From: Ruminococcaceae bacterium UBA5396
GTDB lineage: Bacteria; Bacillota; Clostridia; Oscillospirales; Acutalibacteraceae
Direction of reading: 5' to 3'
Assembly (NCBI GenBank): GCA_002410715.1
Contig: DHOG01000129.1
Coordinates: forward strand, 1 to 12,927
DNA length: 12,927 bases
Both the position numbers and the translations under genes were made by a program. Every line of letters begins with the position of its first letter. The first letter of the stretch is position 1. Below, piece by piece: positions 2 through 12,774 of this stretch. The notes under the pieces are model-generated. The model made no database searches. It had not been told where the DNA came from and saw only the letters and a list, made by a program, of their open reading frames with translations.

Positions 2-358
2 ATCCCCAATTGGTTCGGAAATCTGCTTTTAGAGCTTGAAAAAAAGGAAAATCTTTTGCACGGGGTCGATACGCTCAAAAGCTCCCCCAACTATTCGTAT
101 GAACATATCTGCAGGTGTTTTAAAAAACATCTGAATCTTTCTCCAACCGACTATGTTAACCGGATAAGAGTGAAGCATGCCGCGTCCCTGCTGGTAACCA
201 GCGACGACAATATCCTTGATATAGCCCTGTCGAGCGGTTTCAGAAACGGTACGTATTTTCACAAAGTATTTAAGAAGGTCTTTTTAATGACCCCGCATCA
301 ATATCGAAAGAAATATCAATCCGTCGTAAGACCGAATCATGAAGATAACTCCATATAG
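2..358 (+). CDS. AraC-family transcriptional regulator, C-terminal part (5' end outside window)
   Basis: The reading frame is open from the left edge, so this is the 3' end of a longer gene; the missing part would hold the N-terminal ligand-binding domain. The visible 118 residues contain the usual paired helix-turn-helix DNA-binding domain of AraC/XylS proteins. The first HTH includes YSYEHICRCFKKHLNLSPTDY. The second is ILDIALSSGF followed by TYFHKVFKKVF and the family-typical end MTPHQYRKKY. Such proteins often activate nearby sugar-utilisation genes when they bind a sugar. The gene converges on the GH130 gene, with only 35 bases between the stop codons. Control of the GH130 gene and the rightward transport operon is likely from position but not shown. 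An internal TTG at 56 could be mistaken for a start, but homology-like sequence continues upstream of it (PNWFGNLLLELEKKE), so the gene is cut by the window edge. Confidence 0.93.
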   Translation: MPNWFGNLLLELEKKENLLHGVDTLKSSPNYSYEHICRCFKKHLNLSPTDYVNRIRVKHAASLLVTSDDNILDIALSSGFRNGTYFHKVFKKVFLMTPHQYRKKYQSVVRPNHEDNSI

Positions 359-385: not shown

Positions 386-400
386 GGAATGGCTCATTCC
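386..400. terminator. Small hairpin between convergent genes, possible weak terminator
   Basis: A perfect 6-bp stem (GGAATG / CATTCC) with a 3-base loop lies in the short gap between the convergent AraC and GH130 genes and overlaps the GH130 stop codon. Neither side has a T-run, so it is not a classic intrinsic terminator. It may only help separate the two convergent transcripts. Confidence 0.25.
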
Positions 401-1383
401 AGGCAAAGCTTTATCAGTTCATCGCAATCGGCGAAGGCGACACATTCGACTGTATCGGATGCACCATAATATATTTTGACCGAACCGTCGTCTTCCAGGA
501 TCATTCCGCCGGGGAACACGACGTCCTGTCTGAAGCCTTCCTCGGTTTCATAGCTTGCTTCGGGCGCAATCAGCGGCTGCCTGGACATACCGACTATTTT
601 CCACGGCTCATCCAGGTCGAGTAGCATGATCCCTGTTGTATAGCGTTTTTGCCAAACATTTTCCCAGCCGTTTTTGCCTCTGTTTTTATCGATATCAACG
701 GCGTGGAACGTTGTAAGCCAGCCTTTTGACGTTTTTACCGGAGGAGCCGCGGGGCCGATTTTATCATTCGCAAATCCGACGTCTTCCACACCCATCACCA
801 ACCGGGACTCTCCCCAATATCTCAAATCAGGGGAAAAAGACAACCACATATCAAACCGGTCGCGTCCTCCCCTTGAGTAAACCGGCATGGGCCTTTCTAA
901 ACGGCAGTATTTTCCGCCGATTTTTTCAGGGAAAAGAACCATATTGCGATTATCCGGAACAGAAATGCTTAAAAACTCCAAATCCTCAAAATTATTTGTT
1001 TTCGCGATGACTCCCCTGATCCCGTGCCCACTGTCCGCGGCGAGACAGAGATAGGCCTCCCCGTCTATCACGGTGATTCTCGGGTCATAAACTCTGCGGA
1101 TACCCGGAATGGTGATCATTTCCTGCGTGAAAAACGGCTTTTTCTCAACCTTCCAGTTCAAGCCATCCTCGCTAAATGCCAATCCCAGATTTGTTCCCTT
1201 AAAACAGGTTCCGCCTTCGTAATCAAAATCATTGCGAAAGACCATAACATATTTTCCCTGATATTTTACAACGCCGGCATTGAAAACCAGATCCGAGGGG
1301 TATGGTACATCCGCGCTTGTGAGGATCGGGTTTTTTTCATACCTTTTTATGCATTGAGAAGATTTTGCAAGCGGCAGCATCAT
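394..1383 (-). CDS. GH130-family beta-mannoside phosphorylase or mannosidase
   Basis: This 329-aa protein has the length and motifs of glycoside hydrolase family 130, a five-bladed beta-propeller family. Most members phosphorolyse beta-linked mannosides (mannosyl-glucose, beta-1,4- or beta-1,2-mannooligosaccharides) to mannose 1-phosphate; some only hydrolyse. The N-terminal YEKNPIL, the FNAG-VVKYQGKYVMVFR block, VYDPRIT with the expected proton-donor Asp at residue 100, RLERP near 161-165, NDKIGPAAPP near 206-215, GWLTTFHAVD with His227, and the C-terminal VFPGGMI...IYYGASD all fit. Arg50, Lys208 and His227 are candidate phosphate or sugar contacts, but I cannot assign the subfamily. There is no signal peptide, so it is probably cytoplasmic and acts on imported oligosaccharides. 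The start ATG (1383) has AGGAG ten bases upstream; a second in-frame ATG follows directly. It is transcribed divergently from the transport operon. Confidence 0.9.
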   Translation of the reverse strand: MMLPLAKSSQCIKRYEKNPILTSADVPYPSDLVFNAGVVKYQGKYVMVFRNDFDYEGGTCFKGTNLGLAFSEDGLNWKVEKKPFFTQEMITIPGIRRVYDPRITVIDGEAYLCLAADSGHGIRGVIAKTNNFEDLEFLSISVPDNRNMVLFPEKIGGKYCRLERPMPVYSRGGRDRFDMWLSFSPDLRYWGESRLVMGVEDVGFANDKIGPAAPPVKTSKGWLTTFHAVDIDKNRGKNGWENVWQKRYTTGIMLLDLDEPWKIVGMSRQPLIAPEASYETEEGFRQDVVFPGGMILEDDGSVKIYYGASDTVECVAFADCDELIKLCLE

Positions 1384-1573: not shown

Positions 1574-1605
1574 CCGTCTGCGAAGCTGCGGACGGCCATT
1601 TTTTT
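1574..1605 (+). terminator. Rho-independent terminator, isolated in the divergent intergenic region
   Basis: A 9-bp stem (CCGTCTGCG / TGCGGACGG, with two G-U pairs when transcribed) has a 4-base loop AAGC and is followed after three bases by seven T residues. This is a good intrinsic terminator for plus-strand transcription. No recognised plus-strand gene ends here: the nearest one upstream, the AraC gene, ends about 1.2 kb away with the antisense GH130 gene in between. The promoter proposed for the downstream operon (1770-1798) starts after the hairpin. It may stop antisense read-through or end a very short RNA. Confidence 0.75.
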
Positions 1606-1882: not shown

Positions 1883-4771
1883 ATGAAAAGTATTTTACAG
1901 GGAATGATGCTGATAATGTTAAGAAAAATTACGGTGTTTGTGTATGTAATTTTATTGATACTTTTTTGGTCGATTAACATTTCAGCAAGCGCGGATATCG
2001 GTCAGCCGTCAGTGGCACTGCCGGGCGCGGTTACAGACAGTGCCGGCAGTTACGATGAATATAGGAAAACATTGTCTGGCATACCGGCCGCCACAGTTCC
2101 CGTTTCCATTTCGGCCGGTAGTTATGTGGAGGCTACAGGTGTTACCGCCGACGACTCCGAGAGTGCCGTGTCCTTTGACAGCGGCAGCGGGTCAGTTTCT
2201 TATCAGATTGAAGTCAGTGAACCGGCTGTATACAACATGAGCCTTGCCTACACGACGATGGAGGGGCTCGGCGATATTGAACTGGGTATTCTGATCGACG
2301 GCGCTTCCCCCTTTGAGGAAAGCTCGTCCCTGAAACTGAAAAGAAACTACAGCAACGGCGGAAAAAAACGAACAGATGCATACGGCAATGAAATATCACC
2401 TGAACAGACTGAGGTGACAGGTGATTATGAAACAACTCTTTCCGTTAACTATAACGGTGAAAATATGCTGCTGTACCTGGCTGCGGGAGTACACCAAATC
2501 TCGATTCAAAGCAAATCCACAGATTTTGCATTAAGAGAAATAAAGTTGGGCGTGCCGGAAAGCATGGTATCGTATGCCGAATACCTACAGCAAAACGGAG
2601 AGGCAGACGTTTATGATAAAAATCCCATCTATATTGAGGGAGAAGCGGCTGTCTACAAATCTCAGAACAATTTAATTTCGCTTTCGGACAATTCCTCTGT
2701 GGATGTGTATCCCCACGACGCGGTTACTTCCCGCTTAAATTACATCGGCGGGAGAAACTGGGATCTGCCCGGCGAGTCTATCACATGGGAAATCCCGGTG
2801 GACAAGGCCGGATATTATCAGCTGGGGATAAATTATCGCCAGCGCTATACGCTGAACACCGTTTTTTACCGGGAGCTTCGTATCGATGGCCGGGTACCTT
2901 TTGCGGAGGTCTCCGCTATCCCGTTTGAGTATGCGCGTGGCTGGACATATCGCGTATTGGCTGATGACAATGACGAACCGTATTTATTCTATCTTGACGG
3001 CGGCGTTCATTTCATTACTCTGACTGTCACACAGGGTCCGGTTGCTTCGGTCATGAATGAGTTGGAAGAGTTAAGCTACAACCTTGCCTCCTTTTACAGA
3101 AGCATGGTAGTTATCACAGGGGACAGCCCGGATTTAAATCGCGACTACAACCTGTTCCAACAAATTCCGGATTTTCTGGGAAAACTGGAATCCTATCAGT
3201 CAAAGCTGGAATCCATAGCGAAGCAACTGGAGAGCGTCAACCGGACGAAGGGTGCTTATGCCATATCGACCGTAAACAATATGATGAACGTTATTGAAAA
3301 AATGACGAATAATAAATATTCAGCCCATCGCTACATAAAACGCTATTATTCCTGTTACGCGAGTCTGAGTGCTATGCAGCTGGAAATGAGCAGAATGCCG
3401 CTGGATATTGATGCGTTGTCTTTCAGCGGGGATGGTGAATTCCGGCATAACGGTATAATTGCGAAAATCGTATTTTCATTTCGGCGGTTCATCTCAGCGT
3501 TTTATGACGATTATTCGCGGAAGACGGCAAACGCTGATTCTTCTGACAGAGAGCAGATAACCGTGTGGGTCAACTGGGGACGGGATCAGGTTCAGGTATT
3601 GCAATACCTGACGCAAAGCAATTTTTCAGTCAAGCACGACATCAATGTGGAAATCAAGCTTACCAATGCAACCTTGCTGCAGGCAATATTGTCCGGTAAT
3701 GGTCCCGATTGCGCGCTACAGGTATCGCGTTCCGAACCAATTAATCTGGCTATCCGCGAAGGCGTCTATAACCTGACCAATTTTGATGATTATGAGCAGG
3801 TGCTTGAGAATTTTCAGGGAGACGCTTCGGCGCCGTATTGGTACGAGCGGGACGGCAGCCGGGGACTTTACGCACTACCGGACACACAAAACTTTTATAT
3901 GATGTTCATTCGGACGGATATTTTTAATGAGTTGGGCTTGAAGATCCCTACTACTTGGGAGGAATTTGATCGAGTTTCCGACATGCTGTTACGGCAAAAT
4001 ATGCAGGTTGGTTTGCCGTATGTACAGATTACTGAAATGACACAAGTGAACAGAGGCGCGGGCGCATTGAGTATCTTTCCTACACTCCTGCTGCAAAAGG
4101 GCGGCTCCCTTTACAACGAAGACTTAACGAAAACGGTGCTACTCAGCGATGTTTCCATAGAAGCCTTTGAGGACTGGGTCAATTACTATGTGAAACGCAG
4201 CTTCCCCCTGACCTACGACTTCTTCAGCCGCTTCCGTTTAGGGCTTCTGCCGATGGCGATTCAAAGCTACTCTATGTACGCGACGATAAAGGCAGCCGCC
4301 ACCGAAATTGACGGATACTGGGGAATGTATCCGGTTCCCGGAACAGTGGACAAAAACGGAAATGTCTCCAACACGGTAACCGGCGGAGGTACGGGCTGCC
4401 TGATATTAAATCAATCCGAAAATAAAAAAGCCGCATGGGAGTATCTCAAATGGTGGGTTTCGGAGGATGTTCAATATCAGTATTGCCGGGACATTGAAAC
4501 CCAATTGGGGGCGTCGGCACGGGTAACGACTGCGAATGTCAATGCGCTGTCCCGATTGGAATGGGACAGGGATAATTTGAAAAGCTTGATGGAACAGTGG
4601 AAGAACGTAACGGAGTTGGCGGAGGTCCCGGGCGGGTATTATGTGTCCAGAGTACTGGATCAGGCCTTTTGGAACTCAGTAAACGCGGGAGAAAACGCAA
4701 AGGACAGCCTGTTGGAATGGGCGGAGGTGGCGGATGCCGAAATCGCCAGAAAGCGTGCCCAGTATGAATAG
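1883..4771 (+). CDS. Large modular sugar-binding protein: carbohydrate-binding-like modules fused to a family 1 solute-binding domain
   Basis: This 962-aa exported protein is roughly twice the usual length of a CUT1 sugar-binding protein (about 420-450 aa). A hydrophobic signal sequence ends at ASA (about residue 37). Residues about 72-226 and 249-386 look like two beta-sandwich carbohydrate-binding modules of the CBM6/35 type; the second opens with IYIEGEAAVY and has repeated aromatic and glycine positions. A helical, coiled-coil-like spacer (about 390-545) follows. Residues about 557-962 are the solute-binding domain (ITVWVNWGRDQ, YALPDTQNFYMMFIRTDIF, IPTTWEEF, WEYLKWWVSEDVQ). It should capture a glycan outside the cell and deliver it to the adjacent permeases. 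No lipobox Cys is visible after the signal. The start is uncertain: ATG 1883 has a poor ribosome site, while in-frame ATG 1916 has AGGGA 12 bases upstream and begins neatly at a signal peptide (MLRKITVF). Confidence 0.9.
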   Translation: MKSILQGMMLIMLRKITVFVYVILLILFWSINISASADIGQPSVALPGAVTDSAGSYDEYRKTLSGIPAATVPVSISAGSYVEATGVTADDSESAVSFDSGSGSVSYQIEVSEPAVYNMSLAYTTMEGLGDIELGILIDGASPFEESSSLKLKRNYSNGGKKRTDAYGNEISPEQTEVTGDYETTLSVNYNGENMLLYLAAGVHQISIQSKSTDFALREIKLGVPESMVSYAEYLQQNGEADVYDKNPIYIEGEAAVYKSQNNLISLSDNSSVDVYPHDAVTSRLNYIGGRNWDLPGESITWEIPVDKAGYYQLGINYRQRYTLNTVFYRELRIDGRVPFAEVSAIPFEYARGWTYRVLADDNDEPYLFYLDGGVHFITLTVTQGPVASVMNELEELSYNLASFYRSMVVITGDSPDLNRDYNLFQQIPDFLGKLESYQSKLESIAKQLESVNRTKGAYAISTVNNMMNVIEKMTNNKYSAHRYIKRYYSCYASLSAMQLEMSRMPLDIDALSFSGDGEFRHNGIIAKIVFSFRRFISAFYDDYSRKTANADSSDREQITVWVNWGRDQVQVLQYLTQSNFSVKHDINVEIKLTNATLLQAILSGNGPDCALQVSRSEPINLAIREGVYNLTNFDDYEQVLENFQGDASAPYWYERDGSRGLYALPDTQNFYMMFIRTDIFNELGLKIPTTWEEFDRVSDMLLRQNMQVGLPYVQITEMTQVNRGAGALSIFPTLLLQKGGSLYNEDLTKTVLLSDVSIEAFEDWVNYYVKRSFPLTYDFFSRFRLGLLPMAIQSYSMYATIKAAATEIDGYWGMYPVPGTVDKNGNVSNTVTGGGTGCLILNQSENKKAAWEYLKWWVSEDVQYQYCRDIETQLGASARVTTANVNALSRLEWDRDNLKSLMEQWKNVTELAEVPGGYYVSRVLDQAFWNSVNAGENAKDSLLEWAEVADAEIARKRAQYE

Positions 4772-5684
4772 CGTGAAGGTGAGCGGTTTGAAAAAAGGGA
4801 AACGGTATACTTTATGTTCCGGCATCCAGATGAAGCTGATGCTGGCACCTTTTCTGGTGCTGATGATCGTGTTTTTGGTTTTGCCGGTCTTGTCCTCTTT
4901 GGCGTTAAGCTTTTTTGAGTATGATGTTATTTATTCCTTTAAGTGGATCGGCCTTGATAACTATGTACATATGTTTTTCGAGGACAACGTTTTTCCGACG
5001 GCGTTGAAAAATACGCTTTTATTTGCGGTAGTCACGGGCCCGATTGGTTTCTTTCTTTCGTTCATCCTTGCGTGGATGATCAACGAATACGGGCGTTTTA
5101 CGAGGAGCTGGCTGTCCTTTCTGTTTTATTCTCCCGCCCTGATGGGAAACGCTTATATGATATGGCAGGTTATGTTCAGCGGTGATGCTTACGGGTATGT
5201 GAACAATATCCTGCTTTCGTTCGGACTGATAGACAGTGCTGTCCAATGGTTGAAAGACCCGGCGTATGTACTGCCGATCATTATGGGGGTTCAGCTCTGG
5301 ATGAGCATGGGTGTCTCTTTCCTTGCCAATATCGCAGGTTTGCAGAACGTCAACCCTGAGCTTTATGAGGCGGGAGCAATCGACGGCATTAAAAATCGCT
5401 GGTACGAGCTTTGGTATATCACATTGCCGTATATGAAGAACATTCTGCTGTTTGGCGCTGTCATGCAGATAGCGGCATCATTTTCGGTGGGCACCATTTG
5501 CATGACGATGGCGGGATTCCCCAGTGTGCAGTACTCTGCGGAAACCCTGGTCACTCACCTGATGGATGTCGGCAACATGAGGTACGAGATGGGGTTAGCC
5601 TGTGCCATATCGGCATTTCTGTTTATGATGATGCTGGCTGCCCGATGGCTTATCGGCAAAATTATGAATAGTTTAGGGAGATAG
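4734..5684 (+). CDS. Sugar ABC transporter permease, CUT1 family (MalF/LacF-like), first pair
   Basis: The protein is an integral membrane permease with about six membrane helices. The first is APFLVLMIVFLVLPVLSSLA, others include FGAVMQIAASFSVGTI and AISAFLFMMML. The cytoplasmic EAA loop that docks on the ATPase is clear: ELYEAGAIDG...WYITLP near residues 207-230. It would form a heterodimer with the next gene product and receive sugar from the upstream binding protein. The start at ATG 4734 has GGAGG six bases upstream and overlaps the binding-protein gene by 38 bases, implying translational coupling. Later starts are possible: ATG 4764, or TTG 4788 behind AAGGTGA, which would give an N-terminus (KKGKRYTL) more like family members. 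No ATPase gene is nearby. Confidence 0.93.
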   Translation: MPKSPESVPSMNSVKVSGLKKGKRYTLCSGIQMKLMLAPFLVLMIVFLVLPVLSSLALSFFEYDVIYSFKWIGLDNYVHMFFEDNVFPTALKNTLLFAVVTGPIGFFLSFILAWMINEYGRFTRSWLSFLFYSPALMGNAYMIWQVMFSGDAYGYVNNILLSFGLIDSAVQWLKDPAYVLPIIMGVQLWMSMGVSFLANIAGLQNVNPELYEAGAIDGIKNRWYELWYITLPYMKNILLFGAVMQIAASFSVGTICMTMAGFPSVQYSAETLVTHLMDVGNMRYEMGLACAISAFLFMMMLAARWLIGKIMNSLGR

Positions 5685-5687
5685 CGT

Positions 5688-6551
5688 ATGATCCGAGCCA
5701 GGCAAAATTATAAGCGATATGCCCGCAGCGGCGCGGGAAATATTGTCATGCTGTTGTTTTTGATCATTGCAGGCGGCGTCACACTTTTGCCCCTTATTTA
5801 CTCCGTCATCACCTCGTTTAAGCCGTTGGAGGAGCTGCTGGTCTTTCCGCCGCAGTTCTATGTGCTGCGCCCCACCATGCAAAATTATCTGGAGCTGCCC
5901 AATATCATTTCCAACCTTGCGGTTCCGCTCTCGAAATATATTTTCAACAGTTTATTTGTGAGCATCGTCACTACTTTTTTGCACGTTCTGGTTGCCAGCA
6001 TGGCGGCGTTTGTGCTGTCAAAGGGGCGGTTCAAAGGATTGGGTGCCATTTTTATGGTGGTGCAGGCGCTGCTGCTATTCAACAGCTATACGCTGGCGAT
6101 TCCGCAATACCTCATATTTTCAAAGCTGGATATGATCGATACATACTGGGTATACATTCTTCCTTACCTTCCCAATGCGTTGGGAGTGTTCTTGATCAAG
6201 CAGTACATGGACGGCAGCGTACCGGACGCCTTGATTGATGCGGCATATATTGATGGAGCCAGTGAATTTAAGATCTATGCGCGGATCATTATGCCCATCA
6301 CCAGGCCGGCGTGGATGACTCTGATTTTGTTTGCGTTTCGAGATTTGTGGTCATTGCAGCCCCAAGGAACCATTTTTGATGAGAAGTTAAAGACGCTCCC
6401 GACCGTTATGTCGACAATTATCGCGGGAGGCATTGCCCGAACGGGGAGCGCTATGGCGGCAACGGTTATCCTGATGATCATTCCTATCGCGGTGTATCTG
6501 ATATCACAGTCGAGCGTAATGGAAACCATGAGTACTTCCGGCATTAAGTAG
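5688..6551 (+). CDS. Sugar ABC transporter permease, CUT1 family (MalG-like), first pair
   Basis: This 287-aa membrane protein is the MalG-type partner of the preceding permease. It has a long first membrane segment (IVMLLFLIIAGGVTLLPLIY), further helices, and a typical EAA loop, ALIDAAYIDGASEFKIYARIIMPITRP, near residues 183-209. The start ATG has AGGGAG seven bases upstream and lies three bases after the previous stop, so the two permeases are clearly co-transcribed. Length and order (MalF-like then MalG-like) are standard for carbohydrate importers that borrow a shared ATPase. Confidence 0.94.
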   Translation: MIRARQNYKRYARSGAGNIVMLLFLIIAGGVTLLPLIYSVITSFKPLEELLVFPPQFYVLRPTMQNYLELPNIISNLAVPLSKYIFNSLFVSIVTTFLHVLVASMAAFVLSKGRFKGLGAIFMVVQALLLFNSYTLAIPQYLIFSKLDMIDTYWVYILPYLPNALGVFLIKQYMDGSVPDALIDAAYIDGASEFKIYARIIMPITRPAWMTLILFAFRDLWSLQPQGTIFDEKLKTLPTVMSTIIAGGIARTGSAMAATVILMIIPIAVYLISQSSVMETMSTSGIK

Positions 6552-6566
6552 CGGCGAAAGGTAGAC

Positions 6567-8687
6567 ATGACTATGAGATTGAAAAAAAACCGAATAGCCG
6601 TATTGATAATAATTCTTGTGCTGCTTATGGAGATCGGCGCCGCGGCTGCGGAGGTGCCGTATCATTCCTATACATACTGGCTGGGATATGATCAAAAGAC
6701 TCTGGTGGAAACCAAAGAGATGTATCTGGTCAAAACGGTTTTAACGGCGCAGGATTTGCAGCTGCCCGATTTCGCCCATCCGTCTGCAATGGCTTTAGAT
6801 AAGGACGAAAATCTGTACATCATCGAGGACGATGTTTCGCGTCTGACCGTACTCAACAAAGAGCTTCAGGTTACGCACCGCATCACCGCTTTCACGGACG
6901 ACGACAAGAACGCGTACGGATTTGCGGGTGCTTCGGACATCTGCGTAGCGGAGGACGGCAGAATCTATATAGCGGATACTGCGGAGGCGCGGATACTGGT
7001 GGGTGACCTTTCTGGGGACCTGATAGCCGTATTTCAGTCGCCGAAATCCGATGCAGTTCCGGATGATTTCATTTTTTCACCTATACGGGTAGCCGTTGAC
7101 TCAAAGGATTCGGTGTATGTGCTGAGTTCCGGATCCACATACGGAGCCGTACTTTATAATAAAAGCGGCGAGTTTCAAAGCTTTTTCGGAGCCAACAGCG
7201 TTACCTCATCGGCGCTGACGGTGCTTAGCCGACTCTGGGACATGTGGTTTATGAAAGACGAGCAGAGGGCAGGTCAGATTCAAAAAATACCTTATCAGTT
7301 TAATGATATTTGTATTGACGCGGATGACTTTGTCTACACGGTGACCGGTGCTCTTTCCGAGAACGAGTTGATACAGAAGGGACAGATTCGCTGCCTCAGC
7401 GCCGCGGGAAAGAACATCCTGAAAGTCAAAGGGAACATGCAGTATACCAATTCCGATTCTTTTAATTTTGGCGATGCCCAGGCGATGAGCAGGACGGATT
7501 TCCGTTACATCCAGATCGACGATTTTGGATTCATTTATGCGCTGGACGTTATCAATGGCAGGATTTTTGTTTATGACCGAGAGTGCAACCTGTTAAGTGC
7601 CTTCGGAGGCGGCAGCGGAGCCGGGACGCAATATGGAACCTTCAAGACACCCAGCGCTCTGGCTGTCGGAGAAGATACGCTGTATGTTGCCGACTTCTCC
7701 CATTCCACCATCACCATATTCAGTCAAACCGAATACGGTTCACTGGTCAAAAAAGCGGACGCTCTTTTTTTAGAAGGCAAGTATGAACAGGCGGGCACTT
7801 TATTCAAAGAGGTTTTGCGGCTCGATAAAAACAGTCAGCTGGCTTATTGCGGACTTGCAAAGTCCTATCTGGTCGGCGGGGACTACGAACAGGCGCTGGA
7901 GATGGCAAAACACGGCTTGGATTACAGCACTTATAGTCAAGCTTTCAGACGCATATCCTTGCTGAATATGAAGCAGGTTTTTGCCGCCGGTTTAGGTGTG
8001 GCGGTGCTGATTATCACCGTTGTCATCAGTATGGTGGTCATTTTCAAAAAGAGGCGAATCGTCGTTGCACTCCCTTCCAGATTAAAGATTTATGCAAGCG
8101 GATTTATTCATCCGTTTGCGACGGCCAACCAGATCAAATACGGAAACGGCGGATCCGTACTTCTTGCCACAACCACACTGTTTCTATTTTATGTTTTTCA
8201 GGTTTTAGAGGATACATCCGGAGGGTTTCTATATAACCGGTTCGATCGCAACACCTATAACTCCATTTATACGTTTTTGGGTACTGTTGGCATTGTGATT
8301 CTTTGGTCGGCTTGCTATTGGGCCATGTCGGTCATATTTAACGGAAAGTCCAGACTCAGGGAAGTTTTTATCATTTCGTCTTACGCAATGGTCCCCCAGA
8401 TAATCAAAAGTCTTTTCTTTTTGATTGTATCCCATCTGTCCTCCGCACCGGCCGAAGGATTGATCCAGACATTTTCGGTGATCATGTTCATTCTGTCCGG
8501 CATTGTGCTGGTAATCGGGTGTATGGTAATCAGTGAATTCGATTTGTTCAAGATGGTGGGCACGTCGATTCTCGCGGTGATCGCCATGGGTGTCGTCATA
8601 TTTCTGATTTTTATGATTATGGTGCTCGACCAGCAGTTTATTGAGTTTGTCCGCACGCTGTATCTTGAAATTCGATGCAAGTTATAG
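6567..8687 (+). CDS. NHL-type beta-propeller / TPR / YIP1-like membrane protein
   Basis: The 706-aa product begins with a signal or anchor helix (residues about 6-27). Residues about 60-385 hold repeated NHL-like beta-propeller blades, for example HPSAMALDKDENLYIIED, ASDICVAEDGRIYIADT and TPSALAVGEDTLYVADFS. Residues about 389-460 resemble tetratricopeptide repeats (ADALFLEGKYEQAGTLFKEV, then GLAKSYLVGGDYEQALEMA). A membrane helix at about 471-493 ends in basic KKRR. The rest (about 512-706) has about five membrane segments in a YIP1-like domain. The propeller and TPR part would lie outside the cell, on the same side as the binding protein. Proteins of this kind are annotated in sugar ABC loci of Paenibacillus-like bacteria, but I know of no established function; docking, sensing or assembly of the transporter is a guess. 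GAAAGG lies five bases before the ATG, and only 15 bases separate it from the upstream permease. Confidence 0.82.
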   Translation: MTMRLKKNRIAVLIIILVLLMEIGAAAAEVPYHSYTYWLGYDQKTLVETKEMYLVKTVLTAQDLQLPDFAHPSAMALDKDENLYIIEDDVSRLTVLNKELQVTHRITAFTDDDKNAYGFAGASDICVAEDGRIYIADTAEARILVGDLSGDLIAVFQSPKSDAVPDDFIFSPIRVAVDSKDSVYVLSSGSTYGAVLYNKSGEFQSFFGANSVTSSALTVLSRLWDMWFMKDEQRAGQIQKIPYQFNDICIDADDFVYTVTGALSENELIQKGQIRCLSAAGKNILKVKGNMQYTNSDSFNFGDAQAMSRTDFRYIQIDDFGFIYALDVINGRIFVYDRECNLLSAFGGGSGAGTQYGTFKTPSALAVGEDTLYVADFSHSTITIFSQTEYGSLVKKADALFLEGKYEQAGTLFKEVLRLDKNSQLAYCGLAKSYLVGGDYEQALEMAKHGLDYSTYSQAFRRISLLNMKQVFAAGLGVAVLIITVVISMVVIFKKRRIVVALPSRLKIYASGFIHPFATANQIKYGNGGSVLLATTTLFLFYVFQVLEDTSGGFLYNRFDRNTYNSIYTFLGTVGIVILWSACYWAMSVIFNGKSRLREVFIISSYAMVPQIIKSLFFLIVSHLSSAPAEGLIQTFSVIMFILSGIVLVIGCMVISEFDLFKMVGTSILAVIAMGVVIFLIFMIMVLDQQFIEFVRTLYLEIRCKL

Positions 8688-8697
8688 GTGATTAAAA

Positions 8698-10890
8698 ATG
8701 AAAAAAAACATACGCTTGGTTGTAATGATATTGCTGGGTTCCATGGTTTTTTCATCTTTTGCCGCCTGCGGTAATGTTTCGGATACCGCTGCGCAAAGTT
8801 ATGAGGCCGCTTATGAGGGCAGATCGTATGTTCCCACCGGGCAGGTGGCCGAGAACGGCCGCTTTTCTCTCCACTGGGATGCTGAGAAGCTATGCATCTT
8901 ACTAAACGATAAAACAACCGGGAAAATCTGGTCTTCAACCCCCTATGACAGCTATCAAAACAATGAAACCGTCGATGCGGATATCCGCTCTCTGATGTTT
9001 CTTGATTTTATCACTGTGGGCAGCAGAACCAACTCAATTACAGCCGGGTCGTCCAGTCAGGATGTAACTTCTAAAAAGGTGGATAACGGTATTCAATTGG
9101 CGTTTTGGTTTGATAAACTCAAAATTTCCGTACCCCTTCGATTTTTGCTGACCGGAGAGGGTCTGCGTATCGAAATGCCTGTTCAGGATATCGTCGAGGA
9201 GAAGCATTCCCATAAGGTGTTTAAAGTGGCGTTTGCGCCTTTTTTCTGTTCCGTTGAGAACAGTGTCGAAAATTATTTGTTTGTTCCATCCGGGAGCGGC
9301 GCGCTTCTGTATGCGGATGAGCGCGGTAACGGTTCGGAGCGTTCGTATAGCGGAGCCCTTTATGGCCATGATCCGCTGCATACAACGGCCAGAAAGTATA
9401 CCGAAGAAGAGCCTATGCGTATGGGTGTTTTCGGCTCGGTTTCAAACGGGGAGGCACTGTGCGCCGTTATTGAGAATGGCAATGAATATGCATGGATATC
9501 CGCCGACGCGGGAAACAGTGCCAAAGGAATCTCCAACGCGTATGTTTGGTTTCAGGTAAGAGGAATTAATTCCACCACCCTGTCGACCAGAAGAGTCGTA
9601 AATTATTATACCGATTCCTTAATCGACGAGGATGTCGTCAGTGTTGCCTATTATCCCCTTTATGATCAGGACGCGGGATATACGGGCTTTGCGCAAAAGT
9701 ATCGCGAATACTTGAAAAAGAAATATGGATTGGAGAAATCCTCGGATGACGCTTTGCTCTCCCTCAAAATATTGGGTGGCGCCAAGCTGAAAAAGTTCTT
9801 TCTCGGTATTCCCTATGAAGAAGTCGAGGCGCTGACAACCTTTGAGGAAGCCCGTCAAATCATCAATGAAATGCAGAAAACTGTTGATGGGAAGATGACT
9901 GTTCTGCTGCAAGGCTTCGGAAAATCCGGGCTGGATATTGGAAAGACAGCAGGCGGATACCGTTTTTCATCTGCCTTGGGAACCGATGAAGATTTTCAGG
10001 AGCTGAGCGGCTATTGCGCGGAAACCGGCGTACCTTTATTTGTGGATTACGATGTGGTGCGCTTTTCTAAAGGCCTGTTTTCGACATTCAAGGCCGCGGA
10101 AAACGTGAACCATCTTACGGGAGAGCAAATGCGGTATTCCATTATTACCGGAATGGCGGAGCGCGCGCGAAGCAATCTGTTGCTCAAACGTTCCGATCTG
10201 TCGGCCGTCGTCGACAAGCTTTCAAAGCGGGCAAGGTCCGCCTCGGTCAGCGGCATATCATTGGGGTCGCTCAGCAATCTGGCCTACTCCGATTTCCGTG
10301 AACGGCAGTATTACGTGAAGGGCGGTATGGATGACGCGGTTTATGACGAGTTCCAAAAGCTCAAGCGAAATCAGTTTGCGGTCGCCTCTATAAGCGCAAA
10401 CGACTATGCGGCTGTCGCATCTGATTTTGTCTTTGAGACAGTCTGCTATTCGACACAGAATCTTTATTTTGATGTGGAAGTTCCGTTTTACCAAATTGTG
10501 TTCAAAGGTTATGTTCCCATGTCGTCCGGCTCTATCAACGCATCCGCCGATCCGCAGCGTCAGCTGCTCCGGGCGCTGGAAACCGGTATCGGACTGCAGT
10601 TTACGCTTGTGAACGATTATCATACGGATTTTGCTCCCCTCATCGATAAGGAGGCGTCGCAATCCGTCTATAGGGATAATAAGGATGATATCACGCAAAC
10701 GGTCAGCGATACGTCAGCTTATTTGAACAGCGTTAAAAATGTTGCGATCAGCAGTCACAGCCTGCTGACGTATGACGTGCATAAAACCGTGTTTGAAAAC
10801 GGCGTGACCATCTATGTCAATTATGGCGCAAAAGAAGCCGCGGCAGACGGTGTGACAGTTGCAGCAATGGATTATGTGGTGGTGAAATAA
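8698..10890 (+). CDS. DUF5696-like lipoprotein, possible glycosidase-fold protein
   Basis: The 730-aa product starts with a lipoprotein signal: basic MKKNIR, a hydrophobic stretch, then SFAAC with the likely lipidated Cys at residue 24, so it should be anchored on the outer face of the membrane. The region about 45-310 looks like a large beta-sandwich (FSLHWDAEKLCILLNDKTTG, NYLFVPSGSGALLYA). The region about 330-640 reads like an alpha/beta barrel (MTVLLQGFGKSG, GVPLFVDYD, EVPFYQIVFKGYVPMS). This order recalls clan-level features of GH101/GH129-like enzymes, hence a possible glycan-active role. Candidate acidic residues include Asp450, Asp452, Asp532 and Asp643, but I cannot assign catalysis, and a non-catalytic binding role is equally possible. 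AGGTGA precedes the start; the gap to the upstream gene is 10 bases. The family name is from memory. Confidence 0.75.
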   Translation: MKKNIRLVVMILLGSMVFSSFAACGNVSDTAAQSYEAAYEGRSYVPTGQVAENGRFSLHWDAEKLCILLNDKTTGKIWSSTPYDSYQNNETVDADIRSLMFLDFITVGSRTNSITAGSSSQDVTSKKVDNGIQLAFWFDKLKISVPLRFLLTGEGLRIEMPVQDIVEEKHSHKVFKVAFAPFFCSVENSVENYLFVPSGSGALLYADERGNGSERSYSGALYGHDPLHTTARKYTEEEPMRMGVFGSVSNGEALCAVIENGNEYAWISADAGNSAKGISNAYVWFQVRGINSTTLSTRRVVNYYTDSLIDEDVVSVAYYPLYDQDAGYTGFAQKYREYLKKKYGLEKSSDDALLSLKILGGAKLKKFFLGIPYEEVEALTTFEEARQIINEMQKTVDGKMTVLLQGFGKSGLDIGKTAGGYRFSSALGTDEDFQELSGYCAETGVPLFVDYDVVRFSKGLFSTFKAAENVNHLTGEQMRYSIITGMAERARSNLLLKRSDLSAVVDKLSKRARSASVSGISLGSLSNLAYSDFRERQYYVKGGMDDAVYDEFQKLKRNQFAVASISANDYAAVASDFVFETVCYSTQNLYFDVEVPFYQIVFKGYVPMSSGSINASADPQRQLLRALETGIGLQFTLVNDYHTDFAPLIDKEASQSVYRDNKDDITQTVSDTSAYLNSVKNVAISSHSLLTYDVHKTVFENGVTIYVNYGAKEAAADGVTVAAMDYVVVK

Positions 10891-10891
10891 G

Positions 10892-11797
10892 ATGGCCAAA
10901 AAACGCAGAGCAAGCAGCTTCGAAGCCCGGAAGGCTCGTTACGGCTTTTACTTCATTGTGCCGTGGCTTTTTGGAATGGCGACGTTTTTCTTATTGCCTT
11001 TGGTCAAATCAATCTGGTATTCCTTGTCCGATGTCTATTTTGATATGGACGGGGCGTTGAAGACCGACTTCGTGCTGTTCTCGAATTTCAAATACCTGTT
11101 CAACGTAGACCCGGACTTTATCAACAATCTTCGGGATTCCATTGTTACCTTTTCTTATAAATTACCGGTCATTGTTATTCTGAGCCTGTTGTTTTCCATC
11201 ATGCTGAATCAAAAGTTTAAGGGTCGGTTATTCATGCGCTCCTTGTTCTTTCTGCCTGTAATTATCGCAAGCGGCGTTGTTATGGAAAAGATCACAGGCT
11301 TTTCCGGCGCCAGAATGAGCGTCTCCGGTTCAGTCAACAATGTCTATGCCAGCGGGACTTCCGATCTTCAGCAGATACTGATAAATCTCAATTTTTCAGA
11401 TACGGTTGTTGCCATTCTGCTGAAATACATATTCCAGATTTTTAATCTGATTTGGAGCACCGGAGTCCAGACGATTCTGTTTATATCCGGTCTTCAAACC
11501 ATACCGGCACAACTTTATGAGGTGTCCAAAGTAGAAGGCGCTACGAAGTGGGAGGAATTTTGGTTTATCACCGTTCCCATGCTGCGCAACATTATTTTCC
11601 TTGTGATGGTATATACCATCATTGATCTGTTCGTTACAGTGGACAGTCCGGTTGTCGGGCAAGCGTATGCCTTGCTGGATTCACTTCAATACGGATTAAG
11701 TTCTTCTATGCTGTGGATGTATTTTGTCATTGCGGGGACGATTTCAGGTGTTTTATTGTTTTTATACAATCGTCTGTGCATCAGGAAATGGGAATAG
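10892..11797 (+). CDS. Sugar ABC transporter permease, CUT1 family (MalF-like), second pair
   Basis: This 301-aa membrane protein has a basic N-terminus (MAKKRRAS), a first membrane segment FYFIVPWLFGMATFFLLPLV and about six membrane helices in all. Its EAA loop, QLYEVSKVEGATKWEEFWFITVPML near residues 206-230, is recognisable but departs from the common EAAxxDGA pattern. An unusual Ser/Gly/Asn-rich outer loop lies near residues 137-160. It starts one base after the stop of the lipoprotein gene and uses a GGTGGTGA ribosome site inside that gene's 3' end, so expression of the two is tightly linked. It differs clearly from the first MalF-like permease (4734-5684), so this is a second, distinct transporter core rather than a recent duplicate. 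Confidence 0.93.
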   Translation: MAKKRRASSFEARKARYGFYFIVPWLFGMATFFLLPLVKSIWYSLSDVYFDMDGALKTDFVLFSNFKYLFNVDPDFINNLRDSIVTFSYKLPVIVILSLLFSIMLNQKFKGRLFMRSLFFLPVIIASGVVMEKITGFSGARMSVSGSVNNVYASGTSDLQQILINLNFSDTVVAILLKYIFQIFNLIWSTGVQTILFISGLQTIPAQLYEVSKVEGATKWEEFWFITVPMLRNIIFLVMVYTIIDLFVTVDSPVVGQAYALLDSLQYGLSSSMLWMYFVIAGTISGVLLFLYNRLCIRKWE

Positions 11798-11808
11798 GGG
11801 GGAACCGG

Positions 11809-12774
11809 ATGAGAGTACCTGGCTTGGCTCGGAAGATGTGGCCCTACAAGCGCCATAAGCTGGCAAACCTGGCCGTCGTTATTTTCAGATGGATGGTTTT
11901 TCTGCCGGTCGCCTATATCATTCTATATCCCCTGTTAGACATGCTGTCCACCTCCTTAAAAACGACAGCGGATGTCATCGATCCGGCAGTTGTTTGGGTA
12001 CCAAACGGAATTCGGCTGGATAACTTCAAAGACGCTATGGCGGGGTTGGATTATTGGGGCACACTCGCCAGTACCCTTTTGATTTATATCGTCAGTGCCA
12101 TGGTCGAGGTGTTTACCTGCGCCGTCACAGCATACGGTTTCGCGCGTTTTAAATTCAGATTTAAGAAAATATTTCTCGGTCTTTTGATGCTTAACATCAT
12201 TATTCCCAAAGAAACGATCATCGTTTCTTCCTATATGCAGCTAAAGTATTTCGATGTTTTAGGGGTATTGCGCTTATTAGAAAAGCTGTTCAGTGGTAAT
12301 TTACGGTTTAGCCTGCTGAATACACCGTGGGCTTTCTGGTTGCCCTCCTTATTCAGCGTAGGGATTAAAGCCGGATTATTTATCTTCATTTATATGCAGT
12401 TTTTTAAAGGCTTGCCCCGTGAATTGGAAGAAGCGGCTTATATTGACGGAGCGGGACCTGTAAGAACGTATTTGAGGATTATCATGCCTTCCAGCGGGGT
12501 GGCATTCCTCACAGTAAGTATTTTTTCCGTAATCTGGCATTGGAATGAATTTTACCTTTCTTCCGTGTACATGTCCTCTCAGCAACCGCTGGCGGTCAAA
12601 CTGGCCAATTTGGAAAGCAACTTGTCTGTACTGGGGCTTAACCACGCTACGTCGGTAATCAATGGAACGGTTATGGCCGCTTGTTTGCTTTTCATCTTAC
12701 CCATGCTGATCATGTTCATGGTCTTGCAGAAAAACTTCGTTCGGAGCGTTGACCGTGTGGGCATTGTTGGATGA
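11809..12774 (+). CDS. Sugar ABC transporter permease, CUT1 family (MalG-like), second pair
   Basis: The product is a 321-aa MalG-type permease. It has a basic N-terminus (RKMWPYKRHK), a first membrane segment WMVFLPVAYIILYPLLDML, and the conserved outer segment typical of the family (VVWVPNGIRLDNFKDA). The EAA loop ELEEAAYIDGAGPVRTYLRIIMP lies near residues 204-226, and the C-terminus ends in VLQKNFVRSVDRVGIVG, with the usual basic tail. I chose ATG 11809 because it follows a G-rich ribosome site (AGGGGGGAA) and lies 11 bases after the previous stop. The frame stays open upstream to an ATG at 11713, but that would overlap the partner permease and add a non-family N-terminus. It should pair with the preceding permease. 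Confidence 0.93.
   Translation: MRVPGLARKMWPYKRHKLANLAVVIFRWMVFLPVAYIILYPLLDMLSTSLKTTADVIDPAVVWVPNGIRLDNFKDAMAGLDYWGTLASTLLIYIVSAMVEVFTCAVTAYGFARFKFRFKKIFLGLLMLNIIIPKETIIVSSYMQLKYFDVLGVLRLLEKLFSGNLRFSLLNTPWAFWLPSLFSVGIKAGLFIFIYMQFFKGLPRELEEAAYIDGAGPVRTYLRIIMPSSGVAFLTVSIFSVIWHWNEFYLSSVYMSSQQPLAVKLANLESNLSVLGLNHATSVINGTVMAACLLFILPMLIMFMVLQKNFVRSVDRVGIVG

Follow-up and report, generated by a model that had tools for sequence, protein, structure and literature searches.

Why should a single run of genes interleave two pairs of sugar permeases with two accessory proteins? This question is raised by a 12,927-base stretch of DNA from Ruminococcaceae bacterium UBA5396 (the window), which forms the start of a 22-kb contig (G000:C8) in an assembly (G000) of 3.16 Mb, 210 contigs, and ~73% completeness. 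Genes were called from open reading frames (ORFs), Pfam, and NCBIfam, and nine window proteins were scanned against Pfam. Seven genes followed each other on the + strand, namely a solute-binding protein (SBP1), permeases A1 and B1 (pair 1), an NHL-TPR-YIP1 protein, a DUF5696 protein, and permeases A2 and B2 (pair 2) (ORFs, Pfam):

1883..4771, + strand: SBP1, binding protein of 962 aa (Pfam, PDB profile match, structure model)
4734..5684, + strand: permease A1, UgpA-like, with an EAA-type loop (NCBIfam; GGAGG 5' of the start)
5688..6551, + strand: permease B1, UgpE-like, with an EAA-type loop (Pfam, NCBIfam)
6567..8687, + strand: NHL-TPR-YIP1 protein, with an NHL beta-propeller, TPR, one transmembrane segment, and a YIP1 membrane domain (Pfam)
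8698..10890, + strand: DUF5696 protein, with lipobox FAAC and a GH129/GH101 fold (Pfam, 431.8 bits against a cut-off of 25.6)
10892..11797, + strand: permease A2, UgpA-like, of a lineage distinct from A1 (Pfam, NCBIfam, tree)
11809..12774, + strand: permease B2, UgpE-like, of a lineage distinct from B1 (start called by the ORF caller, GTG 11713; likelier start, ATG 11809)

These seven genes, hereafter the cassette, probably capture and import complex sugars. We consider it reasonably probable that they are one copy of a modular glycan-uptake cassette of Bacillota, duplicated repeatedly, that resembles SusCD systems and contains two importers. A joint function of the seven genes is well supported by their conservation; a physical complex, the kind of substrate, and co-transcription are inferred.

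The original prediction described this order with gaps of a few bases or overlaps between genes. The gaps were indeed short (3 bases for A1/B1, 15 for B1/NHL-TPR-YIP1, 10 for NHL-TPR-YIP1/DUF5696, and 1 for DUF5696/A2, a range of 1-15 bases), and the 3' end of SBP1 overlapped A1 by 38 bases. However, the 85-base overlap of A2 and B2 was probably an effect of the ORF caller, as GTG 11713 is the first start in the B2 frame; ATG 11809, located behind AGGGGGG, was preferred and leaves an 11-base gap.

The arrangement was repeated within the genome. G000 contained 13 DUF5696 matches at 12 loci, and 10 of these had all seven genes; L009 was cut by a contig start, and L020 lacked pair 2 and contained a short DUF5696 gene. 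Genomes of the same genus harbored up to 20 DUF5696 matches (G008, with 14 full loci, 5 cut by contig ends, and 1 deviating). A set of 70 DUF5696 loci (from G000, G008, G004, G007, and G034, plus twelve single loci, and excluding the GH129-like L087 and L088) included 55 full loci, 53 of them in the order of the window and 2 with pair 2 first, as well as 9 loci cut by contig ends, 4 solo copies (L070, L073, L074, and L077), and 2 deviating loci (L020 and L050). The two loci with pair 2 before SBP1, L061 and L086, kept all seven genes. Extra genes, most with secretion-type N-termini as judged by eye, were located between A2 and B2 in L049, L057, L079, L089, and L093. The short DUF5696 gene of L020 (L020:7509-8876) was followed further downstream by three DUF2961-like genes (by eye), possibly reflecting decay or replacement.

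Similar cassettes were identified in other genera. The named loci, chosen as the 80 best-scoring among 585 confirmed SBP1-alignment matches and hence biased towards cassettes, came from Paenibacillus, Cohnella, Neobacillus, Lederbergia, Ruminococcus flavefaciens, metagenome-assembled genomes (MAGs) of Lachnospiraceae, two Treponema MAGs, and others. Cassettes were present in records of Paenibacillus xylanexedens, a carrier that can be cultured (L117, L182, and L187). All seven genes were found on one strand in 68 of the 71 named loci with at least 8.8 kb downstream; the three exceptions were L109 and L154, without B2 within the stretch covered, and L131, which was divergent. Two of the nine shorter named loci were complete, and the exact order was called by ORFs alone in 59/80. 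The four closest named SBP1 loci among the matches listed belonged to Clostridia and Ruminococcaceae MAGs (39-41% identity). The predicted one-strand arrangement was thus confirmed. Chance order or an assembly artefact was ruled out because the order recurred in many genomes, and a lineage-private arrangement was ruled out by the named loci in other genera. L131 (Candidatus Avimonas faecium) contained an extra ORF of 669 aa before NHL-TPR-YIP1 and a DUF5696 match of ~32 bits, and pair 2 was not found there; this may be a variant cassette.

The two accessory genes were also found together. In a phylum sample of 398 genomes, including the source genome, DUF5696 matched at E <1e-100 in 36 other genomes, and NHL-TPR-YIP1 matched at <1e-100 in the same 36. 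This co-occurrence covers these two genes, with up to three (DUF5696) or two (NHL-TPR-YIP1) of the best candidates scored per genome, and the identity of the sample in both scans was read from agreeing genome labels and genome count. Only weak partial matches were detected for DUF5696 in nine genomes and for NHL-TPR-YIP1 in three (G281, G050, and G169). Among the matches listed, the two genes were neighbours in 34 of the 36 genomes, and the listed copies in G120 and G203 were on different contigs. A rare association of the accessory genes with each other or with permeases had been named beforehand as the outcome that would tell against the original prediction; it was not observed, as the two genes shared the same genomes and both permease pairs were present in the full loci counted above. 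As a whole, the original interpretation was supported in part.

Phylogenetic analysis placed the two permease pairs in separate lineages. When 100 cassettes were analysed together with seven (A) or one (B) other permeases, A1, A2, B1, and B2 each formed an exclusive group in the trees (support 0.993, 1.0, 0.997, and 0.896, respectively). A1 had no Pfam match at E 0.001 and was UgpA-like in NCBIfam (5.8e-12, 46 bits, below the model cut-off of 335), and the Pfam scores of B1 (24.2) and A2 (21.8) were both under the gathering cut-off of 26.4. EAA-type loops, which couple a permease to its ATPase, were kept in 128/137 A1, 110/127 B1, 109/126 A2, and 120/136 B2 proteins. Each pair thus had the composition of a CUT1 importer, namely a family 1/8 SBP and two permeases with EAA loops. 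No ATPase was found among the genes of the window (Pfam, NCBIfam). In each of four genomes, a single UgpC-type ATPase exceeded the curated cut-off, scoring 483-489 bits, with the next best at 205-297; in the incomplete G000, the only UgpC/MsmX-type gene over the cut-off was G000:C94:28968-30101, on a contig without a DUF5696 match. This suggests that a single UgpC/MsmX-type ATPase probably serves every cassette copy, and the lone ATPase of G000 is a single point where many importers may be controlled.

Within single genomes, the distances between paralogues were correlated across the seven proteins. This analysis and the trees covered 100 of the 152 annotated loci, those with all seven genes above a length limit, using the NHL part where NHL-TPR-YIP1 was split; G034 (4 cassettes) was skipped for co-divergence. 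Spearman correlations in G008 (10 cassettes) were 0.66-0.90 (at most 1/500 permutations), and were lower for some pairs in G000 (9 cassettes), G007 (9), and G004 (6). These results suggest that the cassette mostly duplicates and diverges as a block. Mean identity among cassettes was 0.51 for A1, 0.49 for B1, 0.38 for both A2 and B2, 0.37 for SBP1, 0.32 for NHL-TPR-YIP1, and 0.27 for DUF5696.

At its N-terminus, SBP1 had a hydrophobic segment in which no lipobox was obvious; this was followed by two beta domains (~66-225 and ~248-385), a helical linker, and a C-terminal CUT1-type SBP domain (~556-962). The structure model of SBP1 had a predicted local distance difference test (pLDDT) value of 84. 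The best PDB profile match was Lin1841, an SBP for beta-1,2-glucooligosaccharides (8.2e-35), which fell on the C-terminal domain, and Foldseek matches were also of SBP type. Positions 270-393 matched the cycloisomaltooligosaccharide glucanotransferase 5x7g (9.2e-10), and positions 233-393 a second one, 3wnl (6.5e-6), in a region that we take to be CBM35; these matches hint that the beta domains could resemble carbohydrate-binding modules (CBMs). A simple motif test, which is no substitute for a signal-peptide predictor, detected a lipobox in 20/135 SBP1 versus 73/87 proteins resembling a second binding protein (SBP2) of the loci, and a stricter test in 15/135 SBP1. SBP1 as a standard lipoprotein SBP was therefore unsupported by the motif test, and because the lipobox is mostly missing, what keeps SBP1 at the cell is probably its N-terminal segment or a partner such as NHL-TPR-YIP1. 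An SBP that serves a sensor, CuaD of Ruminiclostridium, is described in PMC10384115.

The NHL-TPR-YIP1 protein exceeded the Pfam cut-offs for NHL (41 bits against 20), TPR_19 (27.7 against 25), and Yip1 (35.5 against 28.6), the last of which places it in the YIP1 family. Hydropathy indicated a segment at the N-terminus, another at 475-493, and five more within YIP1; from this layout, the propeller and TPR would lie on the outside if the N-terminal signal works as such. The NHL-TPR and YIP1 parts formed one protein in 19 of the 80 named loci and were split in 54, with 7 undecided; the split into two genes occurred in most Paenibacillus loci listed, L154 had two ORFs between the halves, and L167 had three pieces. 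A protein-database search at E 1e-20 detected 155 relatives, most of which, among the 120 listed, carried a YIP1 domain, and the only names among the relatives listed were YIP1 family protein, pgl1, and YncE-like propeller. The stricter lipobox test was passed by 10/133 NHL proteins.

The DUF5696 protein matched the common fold of the GH129/GH101 group over its full length, and had no Pfam GH129 match at E 0.001. NagBb positions were mapped by profile alignment, not by coordinates, and at the positions of the GH129 catalytic pair (NagBb D435 and E478) the window protein has G523 and I565/S566. Among 138 DUF5696 proteins (at least 650 aa and >200 bits, including 4 solo ones), both acids were present in only 3, and the first position was R in 45 and D in 18. 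Given this lack of conservation in the catalytic pair, the data did not support an ordinary GH129 enzyme, and the protein is read mainly as a putative glycan binder. The glycan processing that the original prediction had suggested is therefore doubtful for DUF5696. An alternative that is compatible with the cassette reading is that DUF5696 belongs to the GH101/GH129 group as a working glycosidase whose catalytic pair has changed, and would trim surface glycans before import. The full-length fold match is consistent with this, and four columns were acidic in at least 0.7 of the members (198, 0.91; 225, 0.92; 532, 0.88; and 628, 0.86), with D532 and E628 together in 100/138; DagB, a GH129-like enzyme, likewise keeps only one of the two NagBb catalytic residues, according to PMC5698469. 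However, the NagBb positions vary and E628 is located on a helix in the structure model, and we regard an active enzyme as rather unlikely.

Carbohydrate-related genes were found downstream of many copies. Pfam families (25 of 96 listed) in 84 downstream genes included SBP_bac_1 (11), SBP_bac_8 (6), GH38, GH31, and DUF4838 (3 each), and GH2, GH20, GH32, and GH16 (2 each), and GH30 was additionally seen downstream of cassettes; these were 84 of the 85 listed downstream genes, one very long gene being left out. Because the glycosidases beside the copies varied, different copies may serve different glycans. The glycan role proposed earlier fits these varied glycosidases, the glycosidase fold of DUF5696, and the likeness of SBP1 to an oligosaccharide SBP.

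In the favored reading, SBP1, with its SBP and CBM-like domains, and DUF5696 would hold a glycan at the surface, where NHL-TPR-YIP1 would anchor or organise them at the membrane. Pair 1 would take the ligand of SBP1, whereas pair 2 would take delivery from the lipoprotein-type SBP2 that is often encoded near the cassette. Both pairs would borrow a shared ATPase, imported oligosaccharides would pass to local enzymes (GH130 in the window), and different copies would serve different glycans, like SusCD pairs in Bacteroidota. A bolder form of this reading can be put forward only tentatively: the cassette would be a Gram-positive SusCD counterpart in which two importers of different lineages sit on an NHL-TPR-YIP1 scaffold with the pseudo-glycosidase DUF5696 as glycan receptor, forming one membrane complex, while in each cell one ATPase would energise up to ~20 copies (some 40 permease pairs), and the lineage would widen its diet by gaining copies.

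Several observations weigh against the favored reading. Every one of the top 50 Foldseek rows for SBP1 was a chain of an SBP or a maltose-binding protein, which leaves weak sequence matches as the basis for reading its N-terminal part as CBM-like. Only 41/139 DUF5696 proteins passed the stricter lipobox test, although that of the window has a lipobox. The original mention of one binding protein is incomplete, as roughly half of the cassettes have an SBP2 gene nearby: it lies at most two genes upstream or three downstream in at least 47/76 named and at least 21/63 other cassettes (lower bounds, since the flanks are short), while the locus of the window has it as the fourth gene downstream. Since SBP2 is near only part of the cassettes, pair 2 may instead work with SBP1 or with an SBP encoded elsewhere. 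Joint divergence was weak for A2-B2 in G007 (0.25, 38/500), A1-DUF5696 in G000 (0.36, 32/500), and B1-DUF5696 in G004 (0.33, 51/500), and would also be expected from block duplication without contact. The co-occurrence of the accessory genes held in 36 other genomes, but four relatives (G013, G014, G017, and G020) had strong DUF5696 with no NHL-TPR-YIP1 match at 1e-15; their solo copies indicate that DUF5696 is not restricted to the cassette.

The solo copies had other surroundings. L074:7453-9651 was just 3' of spoIIAA-spoIIAB-sigF-like genes and L077:8812-10986 just 3' of a sigF-like gene (by eye), and neither genome had an NHL-TPR-YIP1 match; these two are possibly a separate lineage linked to sporulation or the envelope. 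L073:8755-11073 adjoined an N-acetylmuramoyl amidase-like gene (by eye).

It could also be argued that the cassette consists of two ordinary CUT1 importers for related sugars, independent of each other and sharing only their regulation, with accessory proteins that act separately and touch neither importer. All of the evidence is conservation and homology, block duplication alone would yield the joint divergence, other genes separate A2 from B2 in five loci, and pair 2 stands in front in two. On the other hand, one would expect importers that act independently to be found separately, but the two pairs remain linked to both accessory genes throughout Bacillota and also in two Treponema MAGs, and the pairs form exclusive lineages in the trees; we therefore regard this explanation as rather unlikely. 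That SBP1, pair 1, and NHL-TPR-YIP1 mainly form a sensing or gating module, with pair 2 and SBP2 as the real importer, is improbable, for although A1/B1 are more conserved than A2/B2, the lipobox is rarer in SBP1 than in SBP2-like proteins, and CuaD offers a precedent, most A1 and B1 proteins keep the loops that couple to an ATPase, and Pfam detected no sensor kinase among the window proteins.

The remaining features of the window lie 5' of the cassette:

2..358, + strand: C-terminal part of an AraC-type regulator, truncated at the contig start (ORF, Pfam)
394..1383, - strand: GH130 enzyme (mannoside phosphorylase family), divergent neighbour (Pfam, 134 bits against a cut-off of 26; NCBIfam)
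1574..1595, + strand: terminator-like hairpin (intrinsic type) with a T run, 5' of the cassette (9-pair stem, tail CCATTTTTTT)

The hairpin is weak by itself, as the scan detected 17 terminator-like sites and shuffled sequence gave 14.6 on average; the terminator and promoter scans both came close to their shuffle means and have little bearing on co-transcription. Downstream of the window, the contig contained one gene with a CBM (L018:14177-16828) and one encoding a second SBP (L018:16738-18300; SBP_bac_8, 9.1e-18).

No description of the cassette was found in open-licence literature, judged mostly by title, and the same literature yielded nothing on DUF5696 and nothing joining YIP1 or NHL repeats with solute-binding or polysaccharide-utilisation systems. 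The conserved set suggests an uptake machine not yet described. It includes two poorly characterised families, DUF5696 and NHL-TPR-YIP1, the former gaining a fold and a testable role, and the enzymes adjoining each copy may allow substrate prediction.

Among known systems, the cassette resembles CUT1 importers with a shared ATPase, which is of the MsmK or MsmX type, in its SBP, its UgpA/UgpE-like permeases with EAA-type loops, the lack of an ATPase gene in the window, and the single UgpC-type ATPase over the cut-off in the genome. It differs in that its two pairs belong to separate lineages, its SBP carries extra domains and is ~960 aa long, and two accessory surface or membrane proteins are included. 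By the definition in PMC10318527, Gram-positive polysaccharide utilization loci (gpPULs) bring together a regulator, a carbohydrate transporter, and one or more enzymes that degrade polysaccharides. The window likewise contains a carbohydrate-active enzyme (GH130, on the opposite strand and assigned to its family by sequence), ATP-binding cassette (ABC) sugar importer genes, and a truncated AraC-type regulator gene in one locus. Unlike a gpPUL, the cassette is a fixed set with two permease pairs and two accessory proteins, with up to 20 DUF5696 loci in one genome, 14 of them full. According to that source, gpPULs have no SusC, SusD, or surface glycan-binding proteins; the cassette resembles dedicated surface machinery of just this sort, and for this reason it is rated above an ordinary sugar operon. 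It differs from GH129/GH101 glycosidases (NagBb, DagB, and EngBF) in that the NagBb catalytic pair is not conserved in DUF5696.

The SusCD systems of Bacteroidota are paralogous uptake modules beside glycosidases that capture glycans at the surface and import them through a TonB-dependent outer-membrane channel. Pfam detected neither a SusC barrel nor a SusD lipoprotein among the nine window proteins. The cassette shares with SusCD the paralogous modules beside glycosidases and, putatively, the surface glycan capture, whereas ABC importers replace the TonB-dependent channel. It is a concrete, repeated candidate for large-glycan capture by Gram-positive gut and soil bacteria without SusCD.

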